From contig CANNEK010000001.1 of the NCBI GenBank assembly GCA_947503625.1, positions 986,152-1,050,151 on the forward strand: a stretch of 64,000 bases of DNA. Reading direction: 5' to 3'. The stretch is from an uncultured Kordiimonas sp. (GTDB lineage Bacteria > Pseudomonadota > Alphaproteobacteria > Sphingomonadales > Kordiimonadaceae). Positions 13,033 through 36,751 of the stretch are shown in pieces. How positions within the stretch are numbered: position 1 is the stretch's first letter; the number at the start of each line of letters is the position of its first letter. Made by a program: the position numbers and the translations under genes. Below the pieces are notes generated by a model, which made no database searches, was not told the origin of the DNA, and saw only the letters and a list, made by a program, of their open reading frames with translations.

Positions 13033-14268
13033 TCATGTGACCTCGTCACCGCGTTCAGCGCTTTCGGTTTTCCAGGCCTCCGTTTTCATGACGTTGTCAA
13101 GAATATCAACAGCACTCCAGATACCCTCATAGCTTAGCGTCAGGGGTGTGAAACCAAATCGCAGGATATCCGGCGCGCGAAAGTCGCCGATAACGCCGCG
13201 AGCGATCAGTGCACGCATGATCGCCAGACCGTTTGCGTGCCGGAAGGAAACCTGACTGCCGCGCTTACTGGCTTCCCGCGGTGAGGCAAGCCTGAAGCCA
13301 TAACCCGGGTTCAGTGCCTCGACCATGTCGATGAACAGGTCACTCATCGCCGTGCTTTTGGCCCGCACCGTATGCATGTCGACGCTTTCCCATATATCAA
13401 GCGACGCCTCGAGCGCGCCGTAACTGACAATAGGCGGTGTACCACAAAGGAACTGCCGGATATCATCGGCAGGAGCATAGTCGGCTTCAAAAGCAAACGG
13501 GTCTTTGTGGCCAAACCAGCCAGCGATGGGCGTTCGCGCCGCTTTCTGGTGGCGCGCCGCAAGATACAGAAAAGCGGGCGCGCCTGGCCCGGCATTCAGA
13601 TACTTGTATGTGCATCCGACGGCCATGTCGGCGCCGATGCCATCAAGGTCTACCGGATGAGCCCCTGCGCTATGTGCAAGGTCCCAAATCATCAAAGCAC
13701 CCGCCGCCTTCACCTTTTTGGTTACGTCTGCCATATCGTGCATGGCACCGGTGCGGAAATCCACGCAAGTCAACAGGATAGCTGCCGTGTCTTCGTTGAC
13801 CAAATCCTCAAAAGAACCATCTCGGCCAATAAGTTTAACATTGATGTCCGGCCACATGCGCGCCAGACCCTGCAAAACATAGACATCAGAAGGAAAATTG
13901 CTCGCTTCGGTTACGAGCGTATGTCTACCGGGGCGCATTTCAAGAGCGGCACACGCAAGCTTAAACAGATTGACGGAGATGCTGTCGGTAACGACGGTTT
14001 GCCCGGGTGCAGCGCCGACCAAGGTACCAATTCTGTCACCAAGCTCGACAGGTTTTCTGTACCAGCCTGCTTCCCCCCAACTCCCAATCAGGCCCTGGCC
14101 CCATTCCTGTTGGACAATCCGGTTTATGCGCTCAGGCGCTGCTTTTGGCAACGCACCAAGAGAGTTGCCATCCAGATATATAACACCCTCGGGCAACATA
14201 AACTCGCTCCGCACCGATGCAAGCGGATCACGCCGATCCATCTCACGGATCATTTCGAGCGTTTTCAT
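13033..14268 (-). CDS. kynU: Kynureninase
   Basis: A 411-residue PLP enzyme of fold type I that splits kynurenine (or 3-hydroxykynurenine) into anthranilate (or 3-hydroxyanthranilate) and alanine. The N-terminal YLDGNSLG motif, D196 in IWDLAHSAGA and the PLP lysine K222 in CTYKYLNAGPG are all present, and the length matches the family. Its ATG overlaps the stop of the upstream arylformamidase gene (ATGA), so the two act as a pair. No tryptophan 2,3-dioxygenase or anthranilate-using gene lies in the window, so formylkynurenine must come from elsewhere. Confidence 0.95.
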   Translation of the reverse strand: MKTLEMIREMDRRDPLASVRSEFMLPEGVIYLDGNSLGALPKAAPERINRIVQQEWGQGLIGSWGEAGWYRKPVELGDRIGTLVGAAPGQTVVTDSISVNLFKLACAALEMRPGRHTLVTEASNFPSDVYVLQGLARMWPDINVKLIGRDGSFEDLVNEDTAAILLTCVDFRTGAMHDMADVTKKVKAAGALMIWDLAHSAGAHPVDLDGIGADMAVGCTYKYLNAGPGAPAFLYLAARHQKAARTPIAGWFGHKDPFAFEADYAPADDIRQFLCGTPPIVSYGALEASLDIWESVDMHTVRAKSTAMSDLFIDMVEALNPGYGFRLASPREASKRGSQVSFRHANGLAIMRALIARGVIGDFRAPDILRFGFTPLTLSYEGIWSAVDILDNVMKTEAWKTESAERGDEVT

Positions 14269-23108: not shown

Positions 23109-23206
23109 GACAGACTGATCAATAATTATCGAAAACGGTCCAATTAAACGCTGGCATGTGGCTTTTGGCTCTGGCACAGTTTGGTGACTTTAGGGAGAGA
23201 AACGGC

Positions 23207-24514
23207 GTGACAGCAAAAGCCATCATCGGTGACCTGTTCACCATGGTTGATGACCCCACCATTGTGGGGCCCAAACAAGCATATCGTTACATTCCGGGCG
23301 GCATGATGGTGGTGGAAAACGGAATTATCACCGCTATTGGACCGCAGGCAGACGTGCAACCGACGCTTGTCCCCGGCACCGAGGTTCGTGATCATTCGGG
23401 CCAACTGATCACGCCCGGTTTCATCGACACCCACATCCATTTCCCGCAAATCGATATGATCGCAAGCTACGGCGAACAACTGCTGGACTGGCTGGAGAAC
23501 TATACCTTCCCTGCAGAAGCTCAGTATTCAGACCCGGCCCATGCCGCAGACGCTGCAGAGTTTTTTATCTCGGAGCTTCTTAGAAACGGCACCACCAGCG
23601 CGCTTGTTTACGGCTCGGTACACGCGCAGTCGGTTGATGCATTGTTTGAAGCGGCGCATACAAGAAACATGCGGCTCGTTGCGGGTAAATCCCTCATGGA
23701 CCGCAACGTACCGGACGCGGTGCGGGACACGGCAGAAAGCGGCGACTCAGACAGCCGTATGCTTGCAGACAAATGGCACGGAAAAGGCCGGCTTGGTTAC
23801 GCTGTGACGCCGCGGTTTGCGCCCGCCTGCTCGGATGAACAACTGATGCGCGCAGGGAAGATGCTCCAGGAATATGACGGCCTCTTGATGCATACCCACA
23901 TGTCCGAAAACACTGCGGAGATTGCCTGGGTTGCAGAGCTTTACCCGGAAGCAAAAGATTATCTGGATGTGTATGACAGCTTCGGACTGCTTACAGATCA
24001 TAGCGTGTTTGCCCATTGCATCCATCTGGGCGGTGACGAATTTCAGCGCATGAGCGAAGCGAATGCAGCCATCGCTTATTGCCCAACCTCGAACCTGTTT
24101 CTTGGCAGTGGTCTGTTTCACCTGAAAGAGGCCGAAAAATACGGCGTGAAAGTGGGCATCGGATCAGACGTCGGTGCAGGCACCAGCTTCTCGATCCTTA
24201 CTACAATGGCTGAAGCCTATAAGGTGGGGCAACTGAGAGGCCACAAGCTGGACCCGATGAAGTCCTTTTATCTGGCAACACTGGGCGGCGCAAACGCCCT
24301 GAACATGGGCGACAGGGTCGGTAGCCTTGAGGTTGGCAAAGAGGCTGACTTTCTGGTTTACAACATGACGGCGACGCCTTTGCTGGCGCGGCGGCTGAAG
24401 CACTGTAAATCCATTGAGGAGACCCTGTTTGTGTTATCCATCCTTGGCGATGACCGGGTAGTGGCAGAAACCTGTATAGCGGGTGAAAAGGCGTATTTTC
24501 AGCAACCCGATTGA
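23207..24514 (+). CDS. guaD: Guanine deaminase
   Basis: A 435-residue zinc amidohydrolase converting guanine to xanthine and ammonia. Metal and catalytic residues fit the family: H76 and H78 (DTHIHFPQ), H231 (HTHMSE), H270 or H273, and D321 (GSDVGAGT). The KSLMDRNVP segment is characteristic of guanine deaminases. I prefer the GTG at 23207 with AGGGAGAGA upstream over the ATG at 23156, which adds non-family residues. It feeds xanthine to the XdhAB enzyme of the same locus and is divergent from the urease operon. Confidence 0.94.
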   Translation: MTAKAIIGDLFTMVDDPTIVGPKQAYRYIPGGMMVVENGIITAIGPQADVQPTLVPGTEVRDHSGQLITPGFIDTHIHFPQIDMIASYGEQLLDWLENYTFPAEAQYSDPAHAADAAEFFISELLRNGTTSALVYGSVHAQSVDALFEAAHTRNMRLVAGKSLMDRNVPDAVRDTAESGDSDSRMLADKWHGKGRLGYAVTPRFAPACSDEQLMRAGKMLQEYDGLLMHTHMSENTAEIAWVAELYPEAKDYLDVYDSFGLLTDHSVFAHCIHLGGDEFQRMSEANAAIAYCPTSNLFLGSGLFHLKEAEKYGVKVGIGSDVGAGTSFSILTTMAEAYKVGQLRGHKLDPMKSFYLATLGGANALNMGDRVGSLEVGKEADFLVYNMTATPLLARRLKHCKSIEETLFVLSILGDDRVVAETCIAGEKAYFQQPD

Positions 24515-24529
24515 AAAGTGAAACACTTT
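24515..24529. repeat. Inverted repeat in the guaD-acyltransferase gap
   Basis: AAAGTG-AAA-CACTTT is a perfect 6-bp inverted repeat that begins directly after the guaD stop and ends 16 bases before the next ATG. It could be a weak hairpin or an operator; its AT-rich stem argues against strong termination. Confidence 0.3.
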
Positions 24530-24545
24530 CATTTATTGATCTGAT

Positions 24546-25715
24546 ATGAAATCAGACAGATATTTTGGAATGGACTTTTTGAGGAGCGCGATGCTCTTTC
24601 TGGGTCTGGTGCTGCACACTGCGCAATATTACATGGTTATGCAGCTTTTCGAGAGCAAGTATGATGATCCAAGCGCGTCCTACTCCATGGATTTCCTTCT
24701 GCTTTCCATCAACACGTTCCGGATGCATGAATTTTTCCTGATTTCCGGCTTTTTCACTGCGATGCTGTATGAAAAATATGGCCGCGACGAGCTTTTGCGG
24801 CGCCGCATGAAACGCCTGCTGCTGCCGTTTCTGTTATTCTGGCCCACGCTTGGTACCGTTGAAACGCTGTGGAACAAAATGTGGCTTACGTACCGCGACC
24901 ACGGCTATTGGGGATTGCACCAAAGTCATATTGACAGCTTCCCGCGATATCTGATGGACACGGAACACTATTGGTTCCTTTATTATCTAATACTGTATGT
25001 GTTGGTGATCTGGCTTTTGTTGCCGATGCTCAACAAGTTTCCGGAGAGCATGAAAACCGCGTACAAAAACCTGATGGGTTTTTTCCTGAAAACCCTGTTG
25101 GGCCATATATGTCTTGGCCTTGTGTTAGCACTTTTCGGTTGGTTCCACGACGCGGGCCGTGTGTCGGGTGACCTTTCATTCCTGCCAAATCTCGCATCAC
25201 TGAGCTTCTATTTTATGTTTGTCGTTACTGGGTGGTCTTTGTACGGGTTGACCGGGTATCTGGACACCTACAAGAAGTATGGCGGGCGATACCTGCTCGC
25301 CGCCCTGCTCTTCTTCTTTCTGGCGCTGGTATCCTTTTCCCTGCAAGGACCAACAGACAGCGAGCAGTACATGATGTTCCATGCGCTGCTGGCTGGTTTT
25401 AACGGCCTTGCCATTGTATTTTTTGTTATCGGTTTCATTGGTGTGGCACAGCAGCATTTCAACAAGCCCAGTCCCAAAATTCGCTACCTGAGCGACAGTG
25501 CTTATTGGGTCTATATCCTTCACCTGCCAGTGATTACCGGTCTGGCACAATTACTCCATGACTGGAATGCAATCGCGGAGATTAAATTCCTGACCGTGCT
25601 TTTGACGTCCACCGCGGTTTGCCTGCTGACCTATGATCTTTTGGTCCGAAACAGCTGGCTCGGTGCCTTGCTGAACGGTCAGCGCATGCCCCGGCTATTA
25701 GTGGCATCAAAATAG
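24546..25715 (+). CDS. Membrane acyltransferase, acyltransferase-3 family
   Basis: A 389-residue polytopic membrane protein with about ten helices. The family opening (FGMDFLRSAMLFLGLVLHTAQYY) carries the catalytic-type histidine (LHT), and the C-terminal half keeps SDSAYWVYILHLPV, typical of OpgC/OafA-like acyltransferases. These transfer acyl groups onto envelope glycans or other exported molecules; the acceptor here is unknown. It follows guaD by 31 bases on the same strand, so it may be cotranscribed, but no link to purine catabolism is evident. It is convergent with the first BLUF gene. Confidence 0.85.
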   Translation: MKSDRYFGMDFLRSAMLFLGLVLHTAQYYMVMQLFESKYDDPSASYSMDFLLLSINTFRMHEFFLISGFFTAMLYEKYGRDELLRRRMKRLLLPFLLFWPTLGTVETLWNKMWLTYRDHGYWGLHQSHIDSFPRYLMDTEHYWFLYYLILYVLVIWLLLPMLNKFPESMKTAYKNLMGFFLKTLLGHICLGLVLALFGWFHDAGRVSGDLSFLPNLASLSFYFMFVVTGWSLYGLTGYLDTYKKYGGRYLLAALLFFFLALVSFSLQGPTDSEQYMMFHALLAGFNGLAIVFFVIGFIGVAQQHFNKPSPKIRYLSDSAYWVYILHLPVITGLAQLLHDWNAIAEIKFLTVLLTSTAVCLLTYDLLVRNSWLGALLNGQRMPRLLVASK

Positions 25716-25718
25716 CTG

Positions 25719-25739
25719 CACTGAAGAACGGTCTCAGTG
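25719..25739. repeat. Inverted repeat between convergent acyltransferase and BLUF genes
   Basis: CACTGA-AGAACGGTC-TCAGTG, a 6-bp stem with a 9-nt loop, fills the short gap between two convergent genes. It may help end transcription on both strands, but there is no T-run on either side. Confidence 0.3.
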
Positions 25740-25762
25740 ACCGGCATGCCTGTGGCACACTT

Positions 25763-26194
25763 TCAGATGGCGATACCGGCGCTATCCTGTCTGAATTTTT
25801 CCAAAATCGTTAACAGGTTTATCAGTTCGTTTGCGCTACAGTCCCGGATACTGAACTTTTTCCTGCCAATCAAACTTTCTGCAATCTGCCTGGTATCACT
25901 GCCCGAGCCAAGATACGCCATTGACCAGTCCGGAAAAAGCCTTTGTTCCCAATCGCCGCTGCTCAACATTCTAATGTTTGTATGCGACCTGGCGGATGCG
26001 ATTTTATCGTGAAAAACGAGTTCTAGCGCCGCCTTCTGCCCTTCCAGAAGCTGCACGAAATGCCTGCCATCCGACCACAATGCGCCCGTGACGTCGCAAG
26101 CGCTATTGGTCATCGCCGCGTTTGCGATGATTTTCTGGAAATCACAAGGGTATTCCTCTGCAAGGTCGCTGACATAGAGGAAGTGATGGAGCAT
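25763..26194 (-). CDS. Short BLUF-domain blue-light photoreceptor (copy 1)
   Basis: A 143-residue protein consisting of one BLUF flavin-binding domain and a helical C-terminal extension. Residues of the flavin hydrogen-bond switch are in place: Y7 (FLYVSD), N30 (TNSACDVTG), Q48 (FVQLLEG), and W90 with M92 (DWSMAYLG). BLUF proteins bind FAD and signal through partner proteins. No EAL, cyclase or other output domain is fused. I chose the ATG at 26194, with GGAAAG before it; longer in-frame starts lack a site and family sequence. It lies 92 bases downstream of a second BLUF gene on the same strand. Confidence 0.9.
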   Translation of the reverse strand: MLHHFLYVSDLAEEYPCDFQKIIANAAMTNSACDVTGALWSDGRHFVQLLEGQKAALELVFHDKIASARSHTNIRMLSSGDWEQRLFPDWSMAYLGSGSDTRQIAESLIGRKKFSIRDCSANELINLLTILEKFRQDSAGIAI

Positions 26195-26286
26195 ACTGCT
26201 TTCCAATCGACCCCACATGGTAATTTTAACAAAGTCCGGCCCTAAATGACAAGCTTTGACTTCAAGGCCTACTACGTCCCGGATGT

Positions 26287-26694
26287 TTAATCGTCGTGCT
26301 CCAGGGCCAGCAAAAATTTCAGCATGCTTTCGGGCGACATCTCTCTGGGCTTCAATTCCCTGTGGCCGGAAAACTTGAATATGTTTGCCCAGTTGCGTTT
26401 TGTGGCAGCGAGATATCCCATGCTCCATTCACCAAACAAGCGGGTATCAATCGCCTCACAGGCGACAAGTTCGATATTACAGTGTCGTGGATCAGCCGCT
26501 ATCCGATGATAAATTCGACTAACAGCAAGTCTTTGCCCTTCAAGGGCCTGAATGAAAAACTTGCCGTCAAACCATAAAGCTCCGGACACCTCTTCCACTT
26601 CGTTTCTGGTGCGCGCAGAACTTAAAATGCGCTCAATGCAGGGGTCCAGTTCAGGATTACATTCGCTAAAATACAGCAGCCGTGTCAGGTACAT
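26287..26694 (-). CDS. Short BLUF-domain blue-light photoreceptor (copy 2)
   Basis: A 135-residue single-domain BLUF protein, a diverged paralogue of its downstream neighbour. The switch residues are Y8 (RLLYFSE), N31 (TRNEVEEVSG), Q49 (FFIQALEG), and W90 with M92 (EWSMGYLA). A short amphipathic C-terminal extension (residues 100-135) could mediate oligomerisation or partner binding, as in PixD-type proteins. The ATG at 26694 has an AAAGGG site. It follows the ureidoglycolate lyase gene on the same strand after 104 bases, so separate or read-through expression are both possible. Confidence 0.9.
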   Translation of the reverse strand: MYLTRLLYFSECNPELDPCIERILSSARTRNEVEEVSGALWFDGKFFIQALEGQRLAVSRIYHRIAADPRHCNIELVACEAIDTRLFGEWSMGYLAATKRNWANIFKFSGHRELKPREMSPESMLKFLLALEHDD

Positions 26695-26798
26695 TTCCGA
26701 CCCTTTATAACCCCCAAAAGCGCGTTTAGAGTTATAAGCCGGAGCCGTTAACAAAGGCTAAATTTGAATCTACTCCACGTTTTGTGAAGACTTTTCCG

Positions 26799-27332
26799 TC
26801 AAACTTGAGGGCCTTCAGGAGACGGCCATACCAAAGTATACGTATTCTCGCCGAGTTCATGCTCGACGCAGTTGACGGCATCTGCCTCATCGGCGATGCG
26901 GTCAATCACCAGAAAGTCGCTGACATCTTCAAGGGCGAGACTGAAGTGATGCCACGTGCCGGGGTGGTAATTCACGCCTTGTGCGCCACTTGCCACAAAG
27001 GCCCGCATAGCAGCCGCTTCAAAAGGACCCTTCGGGGCAACTACAACCAGATATGGTCGTTTCGATAGCGGAATAAAGGCCTGACTTGAAAGCGGGTGGT
27101 ATTCCATAACCTTGATGGTGACGGGCTGAGCCAAAGGCGTGGACCGAAAAATGCTTACACCTCCGCGGCCACCCTCCGCTGTCAGTTCCAGCTCGGCAAG
27201 GTCATGAAAACGGATGGTGTTATCATAGTTGATTGTCCTCTGCACCGCGTCTTCAGATGCCTCTATTACATCGCCGAAAGGAGCGAAAGCTTCCGCAGTC
27301 AGGGGCTCGGCATTCAGGATACGTTCGGTCAT
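26799..27332 (-). CDS. allA: Ureidoglycolate lyase
   Basis: A 177-residue cupin-type enzyme releasing urea and glyoxylate from ureidoglycolate, the last ureide step. Family features include the opening LTAEAFAPFGDVIEA, the conserved EYHPLSSQAFIPL and the C-terminal YHPGTWHHFSLAL metal-site strand. The ATG at 27332 overlaps the puuD stop by four bases; the frame extends upstream but inside puuD. It is last in the xdhA-xdhB-xdhC-puuD-allA part of the operon. Its urea product is the substrate of the urease 5 kb away. Confidence 0.93.
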   Translation of the reverse strand: MTERILNAEPLTAEAFAPFGDVIEASEDAVQRTINYDNTIRFHDLAELELTAEGGRGGVSIFRSTPLAQPVTIKVMEYHPLSSQAFIPLSKRPYLVVVAPKGPFEAAAMRAFVASGAQGVNYHPGTWHHFSLALEDVSDFLVIDRIADEADAVNCVEHELGENTYTLVWPSPEGPQV

Positions 27333-28519
27333 CTTTTGGCACCATCCTCGATCCATTTGCCGAGAAGCGCGCGTTCCTCGTCGGTCATGCCTGTCTCATT
27401 GCCTAGCGGCATGATGTCCGATAGCACAACCTGTTCCATAATAGCAGGCGCATACTGGATAATCAGGTCAGCCCGGTCGAGAAGTACGCCGCCGGGCGCT
27501 TCGTCAAAAAACTCATGGCTCGGCGCCGCCGTGTGGCACATGACACAGTGCCTGCCAACAATCACCTGAACCTGCCCGAAGGGAACCGCCTGATCCCCCA
27601 CATCAACACGTGTTTGCTTTTCGGCCTTGGCCGCAAACACCATCACAGCAATAAAAAGCAGGATGGAAGCAACCACCAGCCCGACACTTGTTTTGCCCTT
27701 ATGCCGCAGGTTGAAAAAGTGCCGAACCATGACACCCACAAGCCCAAGTCCGGCAATCACCGCCCAGTTGTAGGGATTGGAAAAAGTCATCGGATAATGA
27801 TTGGAAATCATCAACAAAAGAACGGGCAACGTCATGTAATTATTGTGCAAACTGCGCTGCTTGCCAATCTGGCCAAGCTTGGGGTCCGGCTCTTCACCTG
27901 CCGACAAGGCCGCCACCACCTTCTTCTGGTTCGGAATGATCACCATAAATACATTGGCCGCCATTGATGTACCGGCGATCGCACCAACGTGGATGAAGGC
28001 GGCACGGTCGCTGAAAATCTGGCTAAGGCCATAAGCCGCCGCAACAAGAATTAAAAACCAGATAACCCCCGTCAGGCGGTTGTTTTGTCCAATGGGCGAC
28101 CGGCACAGACCATCATAAAATATCCACCCGCCAACCAGGAAAGCGAGACTGATCCCGATGGCCTGCCATTGCGACAGATCCATCTTGGACTTGTCGATCA
28201 GGAACAGGTCCGCACCCAAATAATAAATGACCGCGAGCAACGCAAAGCCACTCATCCAGGTGAAATAGGCTTCCCATTTGAACCAGTGCAGGGTGTCAGG
28301 CATGACCTCCGGAGCAACGGCATATTTCTGCTTGTGGTAAAAACCACCGCCATGCACCGACCAAAGCTCGCCAGACATACCCTTTTTAGCCTCTTTGGGC
28401 TGTTCCAGATGATTATCGAGCCAGACAAAATAGAAGCTGGAGCCAATCCAGGCGATGCCGGTGATAAAGTGCAGCCAGCGGATCGCCATATTGATCCAGG
28501 GCGTGATGTCAAATTCCAT
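27329..28519 (-). CDS. puuD: Membrane-bound urate hydroxylase PuuD with C-terminal cytochrome c domain
   Basis: A 396-residue inner-membrane protein with about eight hydrophobic helices and a fused haem c domain (CVMCH, C325-H329; probable distal Met M370 in DIMPLG). PuuD proteins oxidise urate to 5-hydroxyisourate and are thought to send electrons into the respiratory chain rather than directly to oxygen. The helical part keeps family residues (HGGGFYH, WFKWEAYFTW, HNNYMTLPVL). A strong site (AAGGGGGG) precedes the ATG. It follows xdhC closely and overlaps allA. No cofactor-free uricase or HpxO is seen in the window. Confidence 0.93.
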   Translation of the reverse strand: MEFDITPWINMAIRWLHFITGIAWIGSSFYFVWLDNHLEQPKEAKKGMSGELWSVHGGGFYHKQKYAVAPEVMPDTLHWFKWEAYFTWMSGFALLAVIYYLGADLFLIDKSKMDLSQWQAIGISLAFLVGGWIFYDGLCRSPIGQNNRLTGVIWFLILVAAAYGLSQIFSDRAAFIHVGAIAGTSMAANVFMVIIPNQKKVVAALSAGEEPDPKLGQIGKQRSLHNNYMTLPVLLLMISNHYPMTFSNPYNWAVIAGLGLVGVMVRHFFNLRHKGKTSVGLVVASILLFIAVMVFAAKAEKQTRVDVGDQAVPFGQVQVIVGRHCVMCHTAAPSHEFFDEAPGGVLLDRADLIIQYAPAIMEQVVLSDIMPLGNETGMTDEERALLGKWIEDGAKR

Positions 28520-28531
28520 GGGTTTCCCCCC

Positions 28532-29308
28532 TTATTCTTTTTTGTCTTTGCTGACTACCTGAAGCAATTGCGCGGCAACAGCGGCGGCAATAACCTCAGG
28601 TTCTTTGCCGCGCACGCCTGCGACCCCAATGGGACAGGTCAGCCGAGCGATCTGCACCTTACTGAGGCCTTCCTCTTTTTCGAAGCGGGAAACAAAACGC
28701 GCGCGTTTTGTCCCAGACCCGATAAGACCGCAAAAGGCCGCGTCGCCACGCCTCAATATCGCGGCTGTAATGTCATAGTCGAGCTGATGACTATGGGTAA
28801 ACACAAGATACAAGCACCCCTGCACCGCCTGTTCGACCACACGAACCGGATTGTCATCAAGCAGCTTTCGCGTGTGTCTGGCAAGCAGGCTTGGAAACTC
28901 ATGTGCACGACTGTCAATCCAGGTCACCTGAAAAGGCAACCTCTGGATCGCCTTCATCACCGCCTTGCCCACATGCCCGGCACCAAACATGAAGAGGGGC
29001 GCAAAAACGCGGCCGTCCGCCATCAGCGATTGTCGCTCGGCGATTGGGCATTTTTCAAGCTTGAGCACAACATTGCCGCCGCAGCATTGCTCCAGCAGGG
29101 GCCCGAGGGCGTAATGCTGTGTCGCTTCATTCCGGGCCGGGTCATCAAGCAGCTTGCGGGCCTGCTCAATCGCCTGAAACTCCAGGTTTCCACCCCCGAT
29201 TGTTCCCTGAATACCGCGCGCATCAACCCACATAATGGTGCCCGCTTCACGGGGAGCAGACCCTCTGGCCTCTTCAACCCGGACCAGTACACCTTCTTCA
29301 ACAGACAT
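28532..29308 (-). CDS. xdhC: Xanthine dehydrogenase accessory protein XdhC
   Basis: A 258-residue protein that binds and sulfurates the molybdenum cofactor before its insertion into XdhB. It carries the N-terminal XdhC/CoxI domain (EEARGSAPREAGTIMWV, GGGNLEFQAIE) and a C-terminal Rossmann-like domain (MFGAGHVGKAV near residue 107). It starts five bases after the xdhB stop and ends twelve bases before puuD, so it sits in its usual place. Size and motifs are normal. Confidence 0.94.
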   Translation of the reverse strand: MSVEEGVLVRVEEARGSAPREAGTIMWVDARGIQGTIGGGNLEFQAIEQARKLLDDPARNEATQHYALGPLLEQCCGGNVVLKLEKCPIAERQSLMADGRVFAPLFMFGAGHVGKAVMKAIQRLPFQVTWIDSRAHEFPSLLARHTRKLLDDNPVRVVEQAVQGCLYLVFTHSHQLDYDITAAILRRGDAAFCGLIGSGTKRARFVSRFEKEEGLSKVQIARLTCPIGVAGVRGKEPEVIAAAVAAQLLQVVSKDKKE

Positions 29309-29313
29309 TGAAG

Positions 29314-31632
29314 CTACCCCGCCTTCGATTGCACGGCCTGCACTGCCTTCAGCACTTCTTCAGGCGTTGCTGGCGCATTGAGTTGCGGCGAGCATTTGCC
29401 TTCGCCGACACTTGCAACGGCATCGCGAAGGGCGAGAAAAACAGAGTTCGCAAGCATAAAGGGTGGCTCACCTACAGCTTTGGAGCGGTGAATTGTCGCT
29501 TCCACATTCCGCCCACGTGCATAAAGCTCAGTGTTCATCTCGTCGGGCCGATCACTCGCAGTAGGGATTTTGTATGTACTCGGCGCATGTGTCATCAACC
29601 GCCCGCTTTCGCTGAACACCAGCTCTTCGGTGGTTAGCCAACCCATGCCCTGAATAAATCCGCCTTCAATTTGCCCCTTGTCGATCGCAGGGTTGAGCGA
29701 TCGGCCGGTATCATGAAGGATATCCGTGCGAAGCACCCGGTTTTCACCTGTCAGGGTGTCAATAATCACTTCTGAAACGGCGGCACCATAGCAAAAATAC
29801 AAAAAAGGCCTGCCTTTGTGATTTGCGCGGTCATAATGAATTTTCGGGGTTTTATAAAAGCCTGTGGAAGACAGGGAAACACGGTTCAGATAGGCATCTT
29901 TAATGAGATCAGCAAAAGCCACTTCCCGGTTTTCAATATAGACATTATTATTGCGAAAGGTAATCCGGTCCTTTGCGCACTGATATTTTTCCGCTGCAAA
30001 ACTGATCAGTCTCGCCTTGATCTTGCGTGCGGCATCCAGAGCCGCCATACCGTTGAGATCCGAGCCACTTGAAGCAGCCGTTGCGGATGTATTTGGAACC
30101 TTGGCGGTGGTTGTGGCGGTAATTTTAATATGATCAACGTCGATCTGGAATTCTTCCGCGACCACCTGTGCGACCTTCACAAACAACCCCTGCCCCATTT
30201 CCGTGCCCCCGTGGTTGAGGTGCACACTGCCGTCAGCGTAGACATGCACCAGAGCACCCGCCTGATTGAGATGGGTCGTGGTGAAACTGATGCCAAACCT
30301 GACCGGTGTCAGCGCAAGGCCTTTTTTCAGAAAGGGGGTCGACGCATTGAATTCCCGAACGGATTTACGGCGGGCCCGATAGTTTGACTGCTGCGCCAGT
30401 GTTTCCATGAGTTCTGCGGCAATGTTATCTTCCACCGTCATGCCGAAGGGCGTTACATCACGCCCATTACCGCCATAAAGATTCCTGAGCCGCACATCCA
30501 GCGGATCCATATCAAGCGAGCGTGCGATATCGTCAATGACATACTCGATGCCCAGCATGCCCTGAGGGCCACCAAAGCCTCGGAACGCTGTGTTGGAAAC
30601 CGTATGGGTTTTGCATCGATGCGATTTGATCGTTACGTCCGACAGGAAATAACAGTTGTCCGCATGGAACATGGCGCGGTCATTGATTGCAGGAGACAGG
30701 TCGGTTGAGCGACCGCACCGCGAGGCCATTTCTATACCAAGCCCGGTGATCAGGCCATCGTTGTCATACCCGACATCAAAGTCATAACGAAAATCATGCC
30801 GCTTGCCGGTCATAACCATATCATCATCCCGGTCAAGCCTGAGTTTGGCGGGCTTACCGGTTTTTACCGCAACAAGCGCCGAGAGGGCCGCAAACATCGC
30901 GGGGTGAGTTTCCTTACCACCAAATCCGCCGCCCATGCGGCGTACTTCCACCGTCACTGCATTGGTGGGGCGCCCAAGCACATGGGCAACCAGATGCTGT
31001 ACTTCACTTGGATGCTGGGTCGAGGAGAAAACATGCACGTCACCATCTTCCTGAGGCGTTGCGAACGCAATCTGCCCTTCAAGGTAAAAATGGTCCTGAC
31101 CGCCGATCCTGAAGCTGCCTGAATGCCGATGCGCGGCCGTTTCCAGCGCCGTGCTTGCGTCGCCCTGCCCCATGGTCTGCATGGGCTCAATGGCGCTGTC
31201 TGCCTCAAGCGCCTGATCAATGGTCGTCAGCGCATGCAGTTCTTCATAGTCGACGAGGGCAAGGTCCGCTGCCGCGCGCGCTGCCTCTATGCTGTCTGCA
31301 GCAACCGCAAAAACCGGCTGACCAATATACTCTACCAACCCCTCTGCAAGCAGAGGATCGTCGCCTGCAAACGGACTGACGTCATTATGGCCCGGGATAT
31401 CCTCGGCGGTTAGCACCAGCGCCACGCCCTTGGCAGCCTCGACCGCCGTCAGGTCCATCGACTTTATGCGCGCGTGCGCCTTGTCACTCATTGCCACATA
31501 GATATGGAGCAGGTCCTTTGGTTCAGGCATGTCGTCAATATAGACAGCGTCACCCGAAACATGCTTGTGGGCGCTATCGTGCCTGAGGTCTTTGTGCACA
31601 GCCCCTTTAATGTCGGAGAGCATATCAGCCAT
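29314..31632 (-). CDS. xdhB: Xanthine dehydrogenase molybdopterin-binding subunit XdhB
   Basis: A 772-residue catalytic subunit that hydroxylates hypoxanthine to xanthine and xanthine to urate. Family motifs are RRMGGGFGGKE, FRGFGGPQG (substrate-guanidinium region), GGTEMGQGL and the catalytic Glu in AVGEPPFMLA near the C-terminus. GGGAGA precedes the ATG at 31632, which overlaps the xdhA stop by eight bases; upstream in-frame codons are not family sequence. It works with XdhA (Fe-S and FAD) and needs XdhC. Confidence 0.96.
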   Translation of the reverse strand: MADMLSDIKGAVHKDLRHDSAHKHVSGDAVYIDDMPEPKDLLHIYVAMSDKAHARIKSMDLTAVEAAKGVALVLTAEDIPGHNDVSPFAGDDPLLAEGLVEYIGQPVFAVAADSIEAARAAADLALVDYEELHALTTIDQALEADSAIEPMQTMGQGDASTALETAAHRHSGSFRIGGQDHFYLEGQIAFATPQEDGDVHVFSSTQHPSEVQHLVAHVLGRPTNAVTVEVRRMGGGFGGKETHPAMFAALSALVAVKTGKPAKLRLDRDDDMVMTGKRHDFRYDFDVGYDNDGLITGLGIEMASRCGRSTDLSPAINDRAMFHADNCYFLSDVTIKSHRCKTHTVSNTAFRGFGGPQGMLGIEYVIDDIARSLDMDPLDVRLRNLYGGNGRDVTPFGMTVEDNIAAELMETLAQQSNYRARRKSVREFNASTPFLKKGLALTPVRFGISFTTTHLNQAGALVHVYADGSVHLNHGGTEMGQGLFVKVAQVVAEEFQIDVDHIKITATTTAKVPNTSATAASSGSDLNGMAALDAARKIKARLISFAAEKYQCAKDRITFRNNNVYIENREVAFADLIKDAYLNRVSLSSTGFYKTPKIHYDRANHKGRPFLYFCYGAAVSEVIIDTLTGENRVLRTDILHDTGRSLNPAIDKGQIEGGFIQGMGWLTTEELVFSESGRLMTHAPSTYKIPTASDRPDEMNTELYARGRNVEATIHRSKAVGEPPFMLANSVFLALRDAVASVGEGKCSPQLNAPATPEEVLKAVQAVQSKAG

Positions 31633-33091
31633 TAGCACTCTCCCTGTGCTCCAACACACGGGTCGCACCCGCGCCTTCAATTTCGTAGAAGGCTTTCAGC
31701 AGCAGGTTTTTGGCCGATGCCATGCGATAGTCTGCCGATGCCCGCATGTCGGTAAGCGGGCTATAGTCCTCTTCCATGGCTTTCATCGCAGCCCGAACGG
31801 TCTGTTCGCTCCAGCGCTTTCCTTCAAGGGCCGCTTCGGCCACCGCTGCGCGCTTGGGCGTTGCCGCCATACCACCAAAACAGAGGCGCGCCCTGGACAC
31901 TTTTCCATCGACAACCGTCAGGCCAAAGCACCCGCACACTGCTGAGATATCCTGGTCAAAGCGCTTTGAAAGCTTGTAAGCCTTGAAGTATTGGTTGGCC
32001 GCCGGCTTTGGCAAAATCACCTTTTCGACAAACTCACCGGGCGAGCGGTCCTGTTTTCCGTAGGCAATGAAATAGTCTTCAAGGGGAATGGTCCGCCGAG
32101 CACCCCCTTTCCTCAGCACAAGCATGGCACCCAGGGCGATGAGGGCTGGCATACTATCTCCGATGGGTGATCCGTTGGCGATATTACCGCCTATGGTGCC
32201 ACTGTTCCTGATCTGAACCGAGCCGATGCGCCGAATGAGTTCTCCCAAATCAGGATACACCTCACCCAAAGTGTTCATGGCATCCGTATAAGTTACGCCT
32301 GCTCCGATCTCCAGCGAGCTTCCGGTGTCCGCGATCTCCAGAAGTTCCTTCACATCACCGACATAGATGACGGCTTCGAGTTCGCGGTGCTGTTTGGTCA
32401 CCCAAAGGCCAACGTCCGTGCCACCCGCCAGAAACGTTGCGTTGGGGTGTCCGGCCGCCAGCTCAGCGAGCGCATCAATTGTTACGGGGGCGTAATAGTG
32501 TTTTGTGATACCCGTCAGCTGGCTTTTTGCAGACAGTTCAAGAGTGGTTTCCCGCTGGATTGCCCTCAATGCGTTCACCTGCTCATCGCGCAGGTCTGCC
32601 GGAGCGCCACTGACGCCCTGTGCTGCCTCAACAATAGGCCCATAGCCGGTGCATCTACAGAGGTTGCCAGCAAGCGCGTCTTCAATGCTGGATTTGTCGT
32701 TGGCGCCGCTCATCAGCCAATGAGCGTAAAGAGACATCACAATACCGGGCGTGCAAAAGCCACACTGGGACCCATGAGTATCGACCATCGCCTGTTGGAC
32801 AGGATGCAGGCTGCCGTCCTTTTGGCGCAAGCTCTCAACCGTCAATAGCTCCTTGCCATCGAGTGTCGGCAAAAACAGGATACAGGCGTTTACGGCGCTA
32901 TATCGCACCCGATCGCCATCCAACTCACCGAGCACAACGGTGCACGCGCCGCAGTCGCCTTCGGCGCAGCCTTCCTTTGTGCCGGTTCGGGCCATGCGAT
33001 ATCGAAGGTGATTGAGAATGGTGTCCGTCGGGTCAACACCCTTCAGTTCAACCACATCGCCGTCCAACAGAAATCGGATTGTGTCGCTCAT
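31625..33091 (-). CDS. xdhA: Xanthine dehydrogenase small subunit XdhA (2Fe-2S and FAD)
   Basis: A 488-residue electron-transfer subunit. The N-terminal ferredoxin-like domain has C42, C47, C50 and C70, and the second cluster domain has C110, C113, C145 and C147 (CRCTGY). From about residue 195 the FAD-binding domain follows, with FLAGGTDVG and IGGNIANGSPIGD. NAD+ is the usual acceptor for this type. The ATG at 33091 is preceded by GAGGCACAGG, eight bases after the uraH stop. A TTG at 33103 in the same frame is less likely. Confidence 0.96.
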   Translation of the reverse strand: MSDTIRFLLDGDVVELKGVDPTDTILNHLRYRMARTGTKEGCAEGDCGACTVVLGELDGDRVRYSAVNACILFLPTLDGKELLTVESLRQKDGSLHPVQQAMVDTHGSQCGFCTPGIVMSLYAHWLMSGANDKSSIEDALAGNLCRCTGYGPIVEAAQGVSGAPADLRDEQVNALRAIQRETTLELSAKSQLTGITKHYYAPVTIDALAELAAGHPNATFLAGGTDVGLWVTKQHRELEAVIYVGDVKELLEIADTGSSLEIGAGVTYTDAMNTLGEVYPDLGELIRRIGSVQIRNSGTIGGNIANGSPIGDSMPALIALGAMLVLRKGGARRTIPLEDYFIAYGKQDRSPGEFVEKVILPKPAANQYFKAYKLSKRFDQDISAVCGCFGLTVVDGKVSRARLCFGGMAATPKRAAVAEAALEGKRWSEQTVRAAMKAMEEDYSPLTDMRASADYRMASAKNLLLKAFYEIEGAGATRVLEHRESANG

Positions 33092-33099
33092 CCTGTGCC

Positions 33100-33453
33100 T
33101 CAACTGCCCCGGTAAGTGCTGTAGCCATACGGTGATATCAATAGCGGCACATGATAGTGTGCGTCCGCATCGGCGATGCCAAAGCGAATAGGAACAACGT
33201 CCAGAAAGGCCGGGTCGGCCAGTTTGGTTCCGCTTGCACGGAAATAATCGCCAGCATCGAATTCAAGCTCATAGATACCTGTTTTAAAAGCATCGCCTTC
33301 AAGGAGAGGTGCATCCGCCCGGCCATCCGAGTTGGTGATCACCTTTACCAGGAGAGCACGGCCTCCGTTTTCCAGCCGAAACAAACGCAGAGTAAGTCCG
33401 CTTCCCGGGCAGCCGTTCGCTGTATCCAGTACATGTGTGGTCAACCGACCCAT
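33100..33453 (-). CDS. uraH: 5-hydroxyisourate hydrolase (transthyretin-like)
   Basis: A 117-residue enzyme hydrolysing 5-hydroxyisourate, the PuuD product, to OHCU. The N-terminal [11 protein letters not shown] and C-terminal [19 protein letters not shown] carry the family His/Arg residues and the YRGS ending that separates true hydrolases from transthyretin. GGAG precedes the ATG at 33453; the frame runs upstream to 33576 through the intergenic region without family sequence. It is the first gene of the minus-strand uraH-xdhABC-puuD-allA operon, divergent from the GntR regulator. Confidence 0.95.
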
Positions 33454-33545
33454 CGCTTTGTTCTCCGGCTTGTCTTGGTGAAAGCATAAAGCCTGAAGCA
33501 GGAAAGTAGAATTGTAAAGCTGATCGTCGACATTTTTTGCCTTAA

Positions 33546-33557
33546 ATTGTTGACAAT
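33546..33557. promoter_or_regulatory. Candidate GntR/FCD operator between uraH and its regulator
   Basis: ATTGT-TG-ACAAT is a perfect 5-bp inverted repeat with a 2-nt centre. FCD-type GntR proteins often bind TTGT/ACAA-like dyads in divergent promoters. It contains TTGACA, a possible -35 element reading toward the regulator gene, though the -10 region there is poor. The assignment to the adjacent regulator is an inference. Confidence 0.5.
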
Positions 33558-33625
33558 CTGACACGGCACACGACAAATTCCAGTATTCAGGAGCCCAAGT
33601 GGCATAAAGTCGGCAGGATCAACCC

Positions 33626-34318
33626 ATGGCGAACACAGCCCCGATGACGGAAGAAGATGTGTGTGCACACATCCGCGATAGTGTGCTTGAACGCCGACTT
33701 GCGCCCGGCACCAAGCTGACCGAAGAGTCGCTGTGTGCGATCTTTGGCGTGGGCCGCACAACCATCCGTCGGGCATTTTTGCTGTTGAAACGTGACAACA
33801 TCGTCGAACTCCAGCGCAACCGAGGGGCCATGATTGCGTCGCCCAGCCCCGAAGAAGCCCAGCAAGTTTTCGAAAGCAGGCGGCTTGTCGAAAAAGCACT
33901 GCTTGAGCAGTCCATCGGCAAGATCAACACTGCATCGCTGGAAGAGTTGGAGGCTCATCTTAAAGAAGAACAAAGTGCGCTTGCCTCGGGCAATATTGCA
34001 CGCTGGATACGCCTAACCGGTGAGTTTCATATGCATTTGGCCCGCCAAGCAGGCAATGAAATCATGCTGGCATTTCTCGAGCAACTGATATTCCAGACAT
34101 CCCTTATTGTTGCGCTTTACGGACCCTCAAACAGTGGATCAAACTGCAATGGGGACGATCATCGCAACATTGTAGAGGCCCTGAATTCGGGAGATTTCGG
34201 CTGCGCGTCCCGCCTGCTGGTTCATCACTTGCAAGAGATCGAGTCTCAATTGGTTTTCGACAGTCCTCATGAAGCCGACGACCTTCAGGCCGCTTTTGCC
34301 AATGTGAGAACAGCATGA
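33626..34318 (+). CDS. GntR-family transcriptional regulator with FCD domain
   Basis: A 230-residue regulator. An N-terminal winged helix-turn-helix (LTEESLCAIFGVGRTTIRRAF) is followed by a helical FCD ligand-binding domain (about residues 90-220) with metal-site His residues (FHMHLARQ, DDHRNIVEAL, HHLQEIE). It is divergent from uraH-xdhABC-puuD-allA and overlaps puuE by ATGA, so it probably controls the ureide genes on both strands and its own expression. The effector could be a purine degradation intermediate such as allantoin or urate; this is inferred from context only. Confidence 0.9.
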   Translation: MANTAPMTEEDVCAHIRDSVLERRLAPGTKLTEESLCAIFGVGRTTIRRAFLLLKRDNIVELQRNRGAMIASPSPEEAQQVFESRRLVEKALLEQSIGKINTASLEELEAHLKEEQSALASGNIARWIRLTGEFHMHLARQAGNEIMLAFLEQLIFQTSLIVALYGPSNSGSNCNGDDHRNIVEALNSGDFGCASRLLVHHLQEIESQLVFDSPHEADDLQAAFANVRTA

Positions 34319-35235
34319 GCACCACGCACCCCAGAGATTTTGTCGGATACGGCGCAGAGCCACCTCACGCCAATTGGCCCGGTGGTGCACGCGTCGCCGT
34401 TCAACTGGTCATGAACTATGAAGAAGGCGGCGAAAACTGTATGCTGAATGGTGACGCAGGTGCTGAAACATTCCTCTCCGAGATCATCAATGCGCCGATG
34501 ATTGAAGGCGCACGCCACATGAGCATGGAATCAATCTATGAATATGGCAGTCGTGCCGGCGTTTGGCGTCTTCTGCGCCTTTTTGAGGAATTCAATGTCC
34601 CTGTAACCGTATTCGCGGTCGCTACTGCGCTCGCAAAACACCCGGATGTTGCGCAAGCAATCATTAAAGCAGGGCACGAGGTCTGCAGCCATGGCTATAA
34701 ATGGATCAATTATCAGGATGTTCCAGAAGACGTGGAACGCCAGCACCTAGCCTGCGCAATGGATATCCTGACCGAATTGGTCGGCGAGCGGCCACTGGGA
34801 TGGTACACAGGTCGCACAGGGCCAAACACCAGCAGGCTGGTCGCCGAGTATGGTGGTTTTTTGTATGATGCAGATGACTATTCCGATGACCTGCCCTTCT
34901 GGCGGGAGATGGCGGGCGAACCACAACTCATCGTACCCTACACGCTGGACACCAACGATATGAGGTTTGCCAGCCCGCAAGGCTTCAACAGCGGCGATCA
35001 GTTTTACACCTATCTGAAAGACAGCTTCGATGCGCTTTATGCCGAAGGCGAGACCAGACCCAAAATGATGTCTGTGGGCCTGCATTGCAGGCTGATTGGC
35101 AGACCCGGTCGTATCCAGTCGCTGCGCCGCTTCCTGGAGTATGCCAAAAGCCACAGCGATGTCTGGTTCGCACGCCGTGTGGATATCGCCCGTCATTGGC
35201 GAAACGAGCACCCCTATCAAGGGCCAGCGTCATGA
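34315..35235 (+). CDS. puuE: Allantoinase PuuE (polysaccharide-deacetylase fold)
   Basis: A 306-residue NodB-fold protein. In this context it is the PuuE-type allantoinase that opens allantoin to allantoate, unrelated to the amidohydrolase AllB. The family opening PRDFVGYG, the GGENCMLNGD segment, SHGYKWINYQ and GWYTGRTGPNTSRLVAEYGGF match PuuE. Its ATG overlaps the regulator stop and its stop overlaps uraD (ATGA), so these genes are coupled. General chitin or peptidoglycan deacetylase function is unlikely because there is no signal peptide. Confidence 0.93.
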   Translation: MSTTHPRDFVGYGAEPPHANWPGGARVAVQLVMNYEEGGENCMLNGDAGAETFLSEIINAPMIEGARHMSMESIYEYGSRAGVWRLLRLFEEFNVPVTVFAVATALAKHPDVAQAIIKAGHEVCSHGYKWINYQDVPEDVERQHLACAMDILTELVGERPLGWYTGRTGPNTSRLVAEYGGFLYDADDYSDDLPFWREMAGEPQLIVPYTLDTNDMRFASPQGFNSGDQFYTYLKDSFDALYAEGETRPKMMSVGLHCRLIGRPGRIQSLRRFLEYAKSHSDVWFARRVDIARHWRNEHPYQGPAS

Positions 35236-35747
35236 CCGGGATGAAACTCAAGGCAAGCCTGTGTGATCGCTCAACATTCACCGCAGCTTATGGCGGCGTG
35301 TATGAGCATTCCCCTTGGGTTGCTGAAACGGCGTGGGACAACCGGACAGGCGACAGTCTCGACAATCTCGAAGGACTTATGGCAGCAATGCGGCAGGTGG
35401 TGGACACCGCTGAAGAGGCCCGGCAGATGACGCTTATATGCGCGCACCCGGACCTTGCGGGCAAAGCCGCCATCAGTAAAGACTTGACGCCGGAATCCCG
35501 GTCAGAACAATCGGGTGCAGGCCTTGACAGATGCACGCCTGCGGAGTTCGACGAGTTTCAGCAACTGAATGCTGCCTACAAACAAAAGTTCGGCTTCCCT
35601 TTCATCATCGCCGTTAAAGGCCATGACCGCCACAGTATCCTTGCAGCTTTTCGAGCGCGCCTTAATCACGCACGTGATCAGGAATTTCGCACGGCTCTTA
35701 ATGAAATTCACAAAATCGCAGGCTTCCGGCTTCTGGACCTGACCTAA
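35232..35747 (+). CDS. uraD: 2-oxo-4-hydroxy-4-carboxy-5-ureidoimidazoline (OHCU) decarboxylase
   Basis: A 171-residue all-helical enzyme converting OHCU to (S)-allantoin. The diagnostic HPDLAGKAAI motif (around residue 68) and the GFPFIIAVKGHDR segment (near residue 122) are present. The ATG at 35232 overlaps the puuE stop; the frame runs upstream within puuE but has no family sequence there. It completes the three-enzyme route urate to allantoin together with PuuD and UraH encoded on the other strand. Confidence 0.95.
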   Translation: MTGMKLKASLCDRSTFTAAYGGVYEHSPWVAETAWDNRTGDSLDNLEGLMAAMRQVVDTAEEARQMTLICAHPDLAGKAAISKDLTPESRSEQSGAGLDRCTPAEFDEFQQLNAAYKQKFGFPFIIAVKGHDRHSILAAFRARLNHARDQEFRTALNEIHKIAGFRLLDLT

Positions 35748-35761
35748 ATATTGGACCCATT

Positions 35762-36751
35762 ATGACACCCCCAGATTTCTCCCGGCACAATGTGAACCTG
35801 GCGAGCCCCAGACTCGGCGCAGAAGTAACATATGCTACCGATGATTTTTTTGCCCCGATGGACCGGTTGATCAACCCGGAGGAACCCGTCTTCATCCCCG
35901 GAAAGTATGACGACAATGGCAAGTGGATGGACGGTTGGGAAAGCCGCCGCAAACGCACACCTGGGCACGACTATTGCGTGGCTCGCCTTGGCCAGCCTGG
36001 TATTATCGCCGGTGTTGATATAGATACGCGGCACTTTACCGGGAACTACCCACCTGAAGCCTCGCTTGAAGCCTGTGTTTCCGACGAGGCGGTGCCTGAG
36101 GCTGACGCGGCCTGGACAGAGCTGGTTGCTCGCAGTCCGCTGAACGGAGACAGCCAGCATTTTATTGAGATCAACAGTGAGCAAGCCTGGACCCATCTGC
36201 GTCTTCACATATACCCTGATGGCGGCGTCGCCCGCCTGCGTGTTTATGGTCGTGTCCTCAAGAACTGGGGCCCGGATGAAGCCACCAAAACCGTTGACCT
36301 TCTGGCAACAGTGAACGGTGGTTATCCCGTTTTTGCCAACAACGAACATTTTGGTATCCTGGCCAATATCATGGCGCCCGGCAAAGGTTTAAACATGGGC
36401 GATGGATGGGAAACACGCCGCCGCCGTGAACCGGGCCACGACTGGGCGATCGTGGGTTTGGGCCATATAGGCACTATCGAGGAAATTCTGGTTGATACTG
36501 CCCATTTTAAAGGTAATTACCCGGCGTTTGCGTCGCTGCAGGCAGCAAACCTTGATCAACTACCTCAGGACCTTGAGAGCGAGAGTGCCAATTGGCCTGA
36601 ACTCCTCGCCAAACAACCACTCAGCGCAGACAACGAACATGTGTTTAAACCGACCGCAGCCTTGGGTCCCGTCACTCATGTGCGCCTGAATATTTTTCCG
36701 GATGGAGGGATCAGTCGGCTTCGACTGTTTGGCAAAACCTTTCCGGGCTAG
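35762..36751 (+). CDS. alc: Allantoicase
   Basis: A 329-residue enzyme hydrolysing allantoate to ureidoglycolate and urea. It shows the internal duplication typical of the family: two jelly-roll halves, each with GW-E-T/S-RRK/RR-PGHD and a D-T-FxGNYP strand (about residues 58-100 and 217-258). It starts 14 bases after uraD and is the last plus-strand gene of the purine locus. Its TAG stop overlaps the stop of the convergent AtuA-type gene in a shared CTAG. The standard symbol in bacteria varies (alc or allC-like names), so the symbol is a convenience. Confidence 0.93.
   Translation: MTPPDFSRHNVNLASPRLGAEVTYATDDFFAPMDRLINPEEPVFIPGKYDDNGKWMDGWESRRKRTPGHDYCVARLGQPGIIAGVDIDTRHFTGNYPPEASLEACVSDEAVPEADAAWTELVARSPLNGDSQHFIEINSEQAWTHLRLHIYPDGGVARLRVYGRVLKNWGPDEATKTVDLLATVNGGYPVFANNEHFGILANIMAPGKGLNMGDGWETRRRREPGHDWAIVGLGHIGTIEEILVDTAHFKGNYPAFASLQAANLDQLPQDLESESANWPELLAKQPLSADNEHVFKPTAALGPVTHVRLNIFPDGGISRLRLFGKTFPG

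Follow-up and report, generated by a model that had tools for sequence, protein, structure and literature searches.

Two short BLUF proteins, one PixD-type and one diverged at the D-x-R-H motif, in a variable slot of a Kordiimonas purine locus

Short BLUF proteins and the Kordiimonas pair

PixD, known from Synechocystis (Slr1694) and as Tll0078/TePixD, consists of a single BLUF domain followed by two C-terminal helices, an architecture shared by the two proteins described here. Its assembly with PixE is light-dependent, the change being conveyed through Met93 and the C-terminal helices, and PixD-type proteins form both dimers and decamers, as described in excerpts of PMC5899715. BlsA of Acinetobacter baumannii and the other short BLUF proteins of Acinetobacter are likewise devoid of an output domain, with BlsA binding regulators such as Fur, which is bound in the dark (excerpts of PMC5955987). 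Short BLUF genes of Acinetobacter are present in multiple copies per genome and in variable neighbourhoods, with four found in A. baylyi (excerpts of PMC9020721 and PMC3554667 respectively). The BLUF fold also extends to AppA, BlrB, BlrP1, and the photoactivated adenylyl cyclases OaPAC and bPAC, however most members of this group carry output domains, whereas the two proteins described here carry none. To our knowledge, the signal output of short BLUF proteins lacking an output domain is poorly understood beyond PixD-PixE and BlsA.

The window, the 64,000-nucleotide stretch of DNA analysed here, comes from a genome of 4.07 Mb (working label G000; other G numbers denote comparison genomes) that holds four BLUF genes, two of which, BLUF_A and BLUF_B (A and B hereafter), lie together in the window, with the other two found elsewhere in the genome. 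B, a PixD-type short BLUF protein of 135 residues, is encoded at 26287..26694 of the minus strand, with its start ATG at 26694 and the end of its stop codon at 26287. A, a diverged short BLUF protein of 143 residues, is encoded at 25763..26194 of the same strand, with its start ATG at 26194 and the end of its stop codon at 25763. Read along the minus strand, the order is allA, a gap of 104 nt, B, a gap of 92 nt, and A, with plausible ribosome-binding sequences read by eye for both BLUF genes. The photocycle residues are Y8/N31/Q49/W90 and M92 in B, and Y7/N30/Q48/W90 and M92 in A. Both proteins match the Pfam BLUF family (PF04940) above its curated cut-off of 25 bits, B with 88 bits (E = 4.7e-25) and A with 69.2 bits (E = 3.3e-19), and neither matched a second Pfam family at E ≤ 0.001. 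This agrees with the preliminary description of the locus, which had reported no output domain in either protein, and whose coordinates, strand, residues, and single-domain BLUF calls for both genes were exact on rechecking.

The AlphaFold2 models of the two proteins (pLDDT 92.5 and pTM 0.87 for A, pLDDT 91.8 and pTM 0.86 for B) and their Foldseek matches predict the beta-alpha-beta-beta-alpha-beta ferredoxin-like BLUF fold for both, with two C-terminal helices, at residues 99–109 in both proteins and at 121–134 in B or 121–141 in A, that are predicted to pack as in PixD. PixD-type structures are the best Foldseek matches of both models, with B matching PixD 2hfn most closely (E = 2.3e-15, TM 0.91) and A reaching E = 1.6e-11 and TM 0.82, and the Tyr, Asn, Gln, Trp, and Met residues are common to PixD, A, and B. 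In the structural alignment, B is ~34% identical to PixD and A 20–25%, with the first residue of the PixD Asn-Asn pair replaced by Arg in B and by Thr in A. By sequence, B matches Slr1694 across residues 2–131 (phmmer, E = 2.4e-18) and is closer to PixD than to BlsA (E = 6e-14), with the best sequence match of A being a photoactivated cyclase (E = 5.9e-7).

We consider it probable that B is a PixD-type receptor and A a derived paralogue, that the two act in trans, and that their location in a slot of the purine locus is incidental. B would bind flavin in its ferredoxin-like BLUF fold, with blue light expected to rearrange the Tyr-Gln-flavin hydrogen bonds, and the resulting change predicted to travel via Met92 to the two C-terminal helices. 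By analogy with PixD, the self-assembly of B and its hold on a partner protein would shift with light. A, alike in predicted fold and with its photochemical core mostly kept, would be without the Asp contact to the flavin and the Arg relay, so that both its flavin binding and its signalling probably differ, and A may modulate B. The putative partner on which A and B would act in trans is presumed to be encoded away from the pair.

The D-x-R-H motif in the A-type clade

Compared with PixD, A has lost the Asp and Arg of the D-x-R-H motif, with A68, S70, and H71 at these positions and just the His kept, whereas B reads ADPRH, with R70, H71, and an Asp68 assigned tentatively by alignment. The motif was counted in the 83 distinct BLUF proteins collected here, comprising 6 proteins of the A clade and 77 others, with positions matched to OaPAC via the sequence alignment with the photoactivated cyclase, and to AppA by motif. 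Asp occupies the position of OaPAC Asp67 in 76 of the 77 proteins outside the A clade, and Arg follows two residues later in 73 of the 77, with neither residue found in any of the six A-clade proteins; these six represent about four lineages, given the close relationship of G011 to G024 and of G017 to G018. The His of the motif is present in all six, and Tyr, Asn, Trp, and Met are retained throughout the clade, with Gln retained in five of the six. The exception is the A-type BLUF protein of G020 (L060, 1527–1955), in which the photoactive Gln is replaced by His.

Asp67 of OaPAC bonds the ribityl chain of the flavin (excerpts of PMC11533990), and in simulations of AppA, Arg84 separates from Asp82 and passes the change to the beta-sheet, with Asp82 proposed as a signalling site (excerpts of PMC10278134). 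The A clade, having kept the Tyr-Gln-Trp-Met core and dropped the Asp and Arg, is a natural test of the roles of these two residues. Both flavin switches had been described as intact in the earlier account of this locus, which is just partly right; the Tyr, Asn, Gln, and Trp residues are indeed present in both proteins, however A is without the Asp and Arg of D-x-R-H.

The long branch of A (1.1–1.4 changes per column) and its loss of near-universal residues could also be read as the decay of a functionless gene, with B alone of importance. However, A has a full open frame, a confident model, and its core residues, and the A-type genes of other genomes give pN/pS values of 0.145 between G018 and G017 (104 codons, with synonymous sites close to saturation) and 0.344 between G024 and G011 (on few changes). 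Judged by these sequence comparisons, A-type genes are conserved as protein under purifying selection, and decay of A is improbable.

The purine locus and its variable slot

The pair lies in a slot (24515..26798) bordered on one side by the guanine deaminase gene guaD (23156..24514, plus strand; NCBIfam TIGR02967, 585 bits against a cut-off of 375) and on the other by the ureidoglycolate lyase gene allA (26799..27356, minus strand; Pfam PF04115, E = 2.2e-54), which is the upstream neighbour of the pair and the end of an xdh-puuD-allA run. The remaining purine locus beside the slot (27329..36751, both strands; assigned with Pfam and NCBIfam) holds genes for a membrane urate oxidase, XdhC, XdhB, an FeS/FAD subunit, and hydroxyisourate hydrolase on the minus strand, and for a GntR regulator, PuuE, OHCU decarboxylase, and allantoicase on the plus strand. 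The pathway around the BLUF genes also includes urease genes, with PuuE being an allantoinase and the FeS/FAD subunit of xanthine dehydrogenase type. Pfam and NCBIfam thus confirm the guanine-to-ammonia gene set that the preliminary description had placed around the BLUF genes, with allA adjoining them. The third occupant of the slot is an acyltransferase-3 family gene (24546..25715, plus strand; Pfam Acyl_transf_3, E = 1.3e-22), convergent to A. This gene is nearly private to G000 within the family, with its best relative in the 28 other family genomes, found in G028, only 45% identical, and none of the family matches located at a guaD-allA slot.

In the surroundings of allA in 15 genus genomes, guaD faces allA in 11, with the arrangement of the two genes differing in G010, G012, G015, and G021. 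The slot between them is empty in 3 of the 11 (G014, G017, and G019) and occupied in 8, by the acyltransferase gene, A, and B in G000, an M17 peptidase gene in G025, an M17 peptidase gene and further ORFs in G016, a solute-binding protein gene in G018, and, as read by eye, two genes in G026, an ORF pair in each of G024 and G011, and one ORF in G020. Since the slot is empty or differently filled across these genomes, this is a place that accepts varied cargo, and the guaD-allA slot would accordingly represent a permissive, variable site and not a sign of light-controlled purine use. A recent horizontal insertion of the pair is unsupported, with neither gene unusual in GC3 (0.604 for A, ranking 34th of 47; 0.529 for B, ranking 5th of 47), and no long flanking repeats found in 24300–27100.

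The positions of allA and BLUF genes were compared in two collections, an order set of 296 genomes and a class set of 385. BLUF genes of the class set were found using a profile built from A- and B-type proteins that may overlook some of them, and those of one allA-bearing genome (G253) were checked separately to complete the order-set comparison. Both genes are present in 38 genomes (18 of the order set and 20 more of the class set), with a BLUF gene adjoining allA in one of these, G000. The sole other near case is G018, where an A-type BLUF gene shares a contig with allA at a distance of ~9 kb, because the OsmC-GST site at which this gene is found sits on the purine contig. In the remaining genomes the BLUF gene is on another contig or more than 100 kb away, although contig ends may conceal adjacency in draft or fragmented genomes. 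With 61 BLUF genes, ~0.15 would be expected by chance within 5 kb of allA and ~0.3 within 10 kb, and the occurrence of BLUF genes near allA is within chance. A search of the 296 order genomes for urate oxidase (PF06181) gives a similar picture by eye in the high-scoring matches listed; most of the low-scoring matches listed are short C-terminal cytochrome-like proteins, and no conclusion rests on this search. Purine markers (allA or guaD) are found in the flanks of the BLUF loci of 12 named relatives at the A-type locus of G018 only, and G025, the closest relative of G000 by two proteins, has kept the purine locus and is without A- and B-type BLUF genes. Furthermore, full-text searches of the open-access literature gave no paper connecting BLUF proteins with purine catabolism, xanthine dehydrogenase, or Kordiimonas in its title or the opening of its abstract.

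On these neighbourhood counts, purine regulation through conserved linkage is rejected. The preliminary description had proposed a light sensor adjusting purine or nitrogen use; the adjacency of BLUF genes and allA is however not conserved, relatives almost never have a BLUF gene near purine genes, and the slot itself is variable. Insertion by chance, which the same account had offered as the plain alternative, is a better account of the location than a purine function. The purine address of the BLUF pair is most likely accidental, and the purine neighbourhood, which is why the locus was flagged, provides no basis for assigning function. Against an accidental location, A and B lie on the strand of the xdh-puuD-allA run, 104 nt past allA, and G018 and G000 together represent a loose linkage to allA in 2 of the 38 genomes.

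Co-transcription of A and B with the purine genes is possible, given the shared strand, the gap of 104 nt, and a simple scan in which no terminator-like site was found between allA and B, with terminator scans performing at chance level. The same features, together with the whole pathway surrounding the pair, could suggest dedicated light control, with A and B forming part of the purine operon and adjusting xanthine dehydrogenase and the downstream enzymes. Such control is very unlikely, with adjacency in one of 38 genomes and one further case at ~9 kb, the purine locus of G025 kept in a genome without the A- and B-types, and no linking report found in the open-access literature. Coupling may also run in reverse, with read-through from the purine operon setting the amount of photoreceptor, so that purine or nitrogen status would tune light sensitivity and light would be without effect on purines. 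Gene order and strand, the ribosome-binding sequences read by eye on both BLUF genes, and the lack of a terminator-like site between allA and B in the scan are consistent with this reading, however the arrangement is found in one genome only, and a promoter-like site lies before A (26252–26223), though with 2 such sites found against 3.2 expected, their number does not exceed chance. We consider reverse coupling unlikely.

Origin, co-occurrence, and neighbourhoods of the A- and B-type genes

The family holds 38 BLUF genes in 18 of its 29 genomes. Over these 18 genomes, 0.018 pairs of BLUF genes would be expected within 1 kb of each other, with clusters seen in 4, and clustering within 1 kb is beyond chance. 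Tandem clusters comprise three genes in G001 and G002 and two in G021 (L035, L036, and L037), and G176 of the order also has a BLUF cluster among the matches listed, with the two or three genes of these clusters lying within 1–3 kb. The two genes of G021, and two genes each of G001 and G002 (not the third), are neighbours in one clade, which fits local duplication. In contrast, A and B are not sisters, and a recent tandem duplication as their origin is rejected, with a sister grouping costing 22 log-likelihood units (p-AU 0.0019). By these trees, A and B are separate lineages.

A falls within a clade of six genes of the genus, with an SH-aLRT support of 96, and 99/99 in a second tree with five rows, while its link to the other A-types inside the clade has moderate support (93/74 to 96). 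This moderate support for the place of A, together with its long branch, weighs against the reading of B as receptor and A as derived paralogue. B groups near genes of G018, Aestuariispira, and Maricaulis with a support of 81–82 in one tree and without resolution in the second, and 'B-type' is a loose label for genes that do not form a clade when A is left out.

Among the 15 genus genomes that are at least 90% complete, 4 carry both A- and B-types (G000, G018, G011, and G024), none carries one singly, and 11 carry neither. Fisher's test gives 0.0007, rising to 0.003 when G011 and G024, which are nearly identical, are treated as one genome, in a test that ignores relatedness; the carriers lie on at least three branches of a tree of two proteins. 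Two less complete genomes, G017 (80%) and G020 (76%), have an A-type without a B-type, and G028, of the same family and 100% complete, has a B-type without an A-type. The co-occurrence of A- and B-types mildly supports a heteromer, weakened by relatedness and by G028.

Such a heteromer would be a Kordiimonas-type two-part sensor, in which the receptor B and a pseudo-receptor A co-assemble as hetero-oligomers of the PixD kind, and the impaired A dampens, gates, or redirects B, setting its gain or dark level, with the two genes side by side in G000. That A- and B-types go together in 4 of the 15 near-complete genus genomes, are never found singly among these, and lie on at least three branches is in keeping with this arrangement, as are the loss of both the Asp and the Arg throughout the A clade, with one member also without the Gln, and the dimers and decamers of PixD-type proteins described in excerpts of PMC5899715. 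However, Fisher's test is blind to relatedness and the B-types are a loose set, A-types stand without B-types in G017 and G020 and a B-type without an A-type in G028, and in G018, G011, and G024 the two types are not linked. We therefore regard co-assembly as doubtful, though if A does pair with B, the two would constitute a receptor and pseudo-receptor pair among BLUF proteins. The motif loss of A and the co-occurrence of A and B are the points worth following.

The relatives of A are found in several settings. The A-type genes of G018, G020, and G017 adjoin an OsmC gene, with those of G018 and G020 also adjoining a GST gene near bacterioferritin, and the contig of G017 ending at the A-type BLUF gene. 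In G018 (L033, 14398–18495) and G020 (L060, 54–2568) the A-type BLUF gene lies between the GST and OsmC genes, and most other genus genomes have the OsmC-GST-bacterioferritin group with no BLUF gene in it. The OsmC-GST site is present elsewhere in the genome of G000, also without a BLUF gene; however, with just 37% identity between A and the A-type gene of G018, no claim is made for a move of A out of this site in a G000 ancestor. The A-type genes of G011 and G024 are at other locations again.

The relatives of B in Maricaulis MAGs (46–56% identity), Aestuariispira insulae (50%), and G018 (57%) sit among other genes. At the loci of the Maricaulis MAGs (L113–L118), an M14-type carboxypeptidase gene is found near the B-type BLUF gene (Pfam run on L113 only), as is, at several of them, a kynureninase-like gene. 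The window analysed here also holds a kynureninase gene (13033–14268), away from the BLUF genes. Aestuariispira insulae has its B-type BLUF gene (L119, 10001–10414) 45 nt downstream of a same-strand regulator gene (L119, 9059–9955), whose product combines a MerR domain with a B12-binding domain, the domain pattern of CarH/LitR-type light regulators, and the regulator and the BLUF protein are possibly a blue-light pair. Additionally, a search of plasmids with B as the query matched 182 of 72,556 records, the best at ~39% identity. On a plasmid of Vibrio coralliilyticus (L175, 4001–5239), fur is found two genes away from a BLUF gene whose product shares ~39% identity with B, an arrangement that recalls BlsA-Fur.
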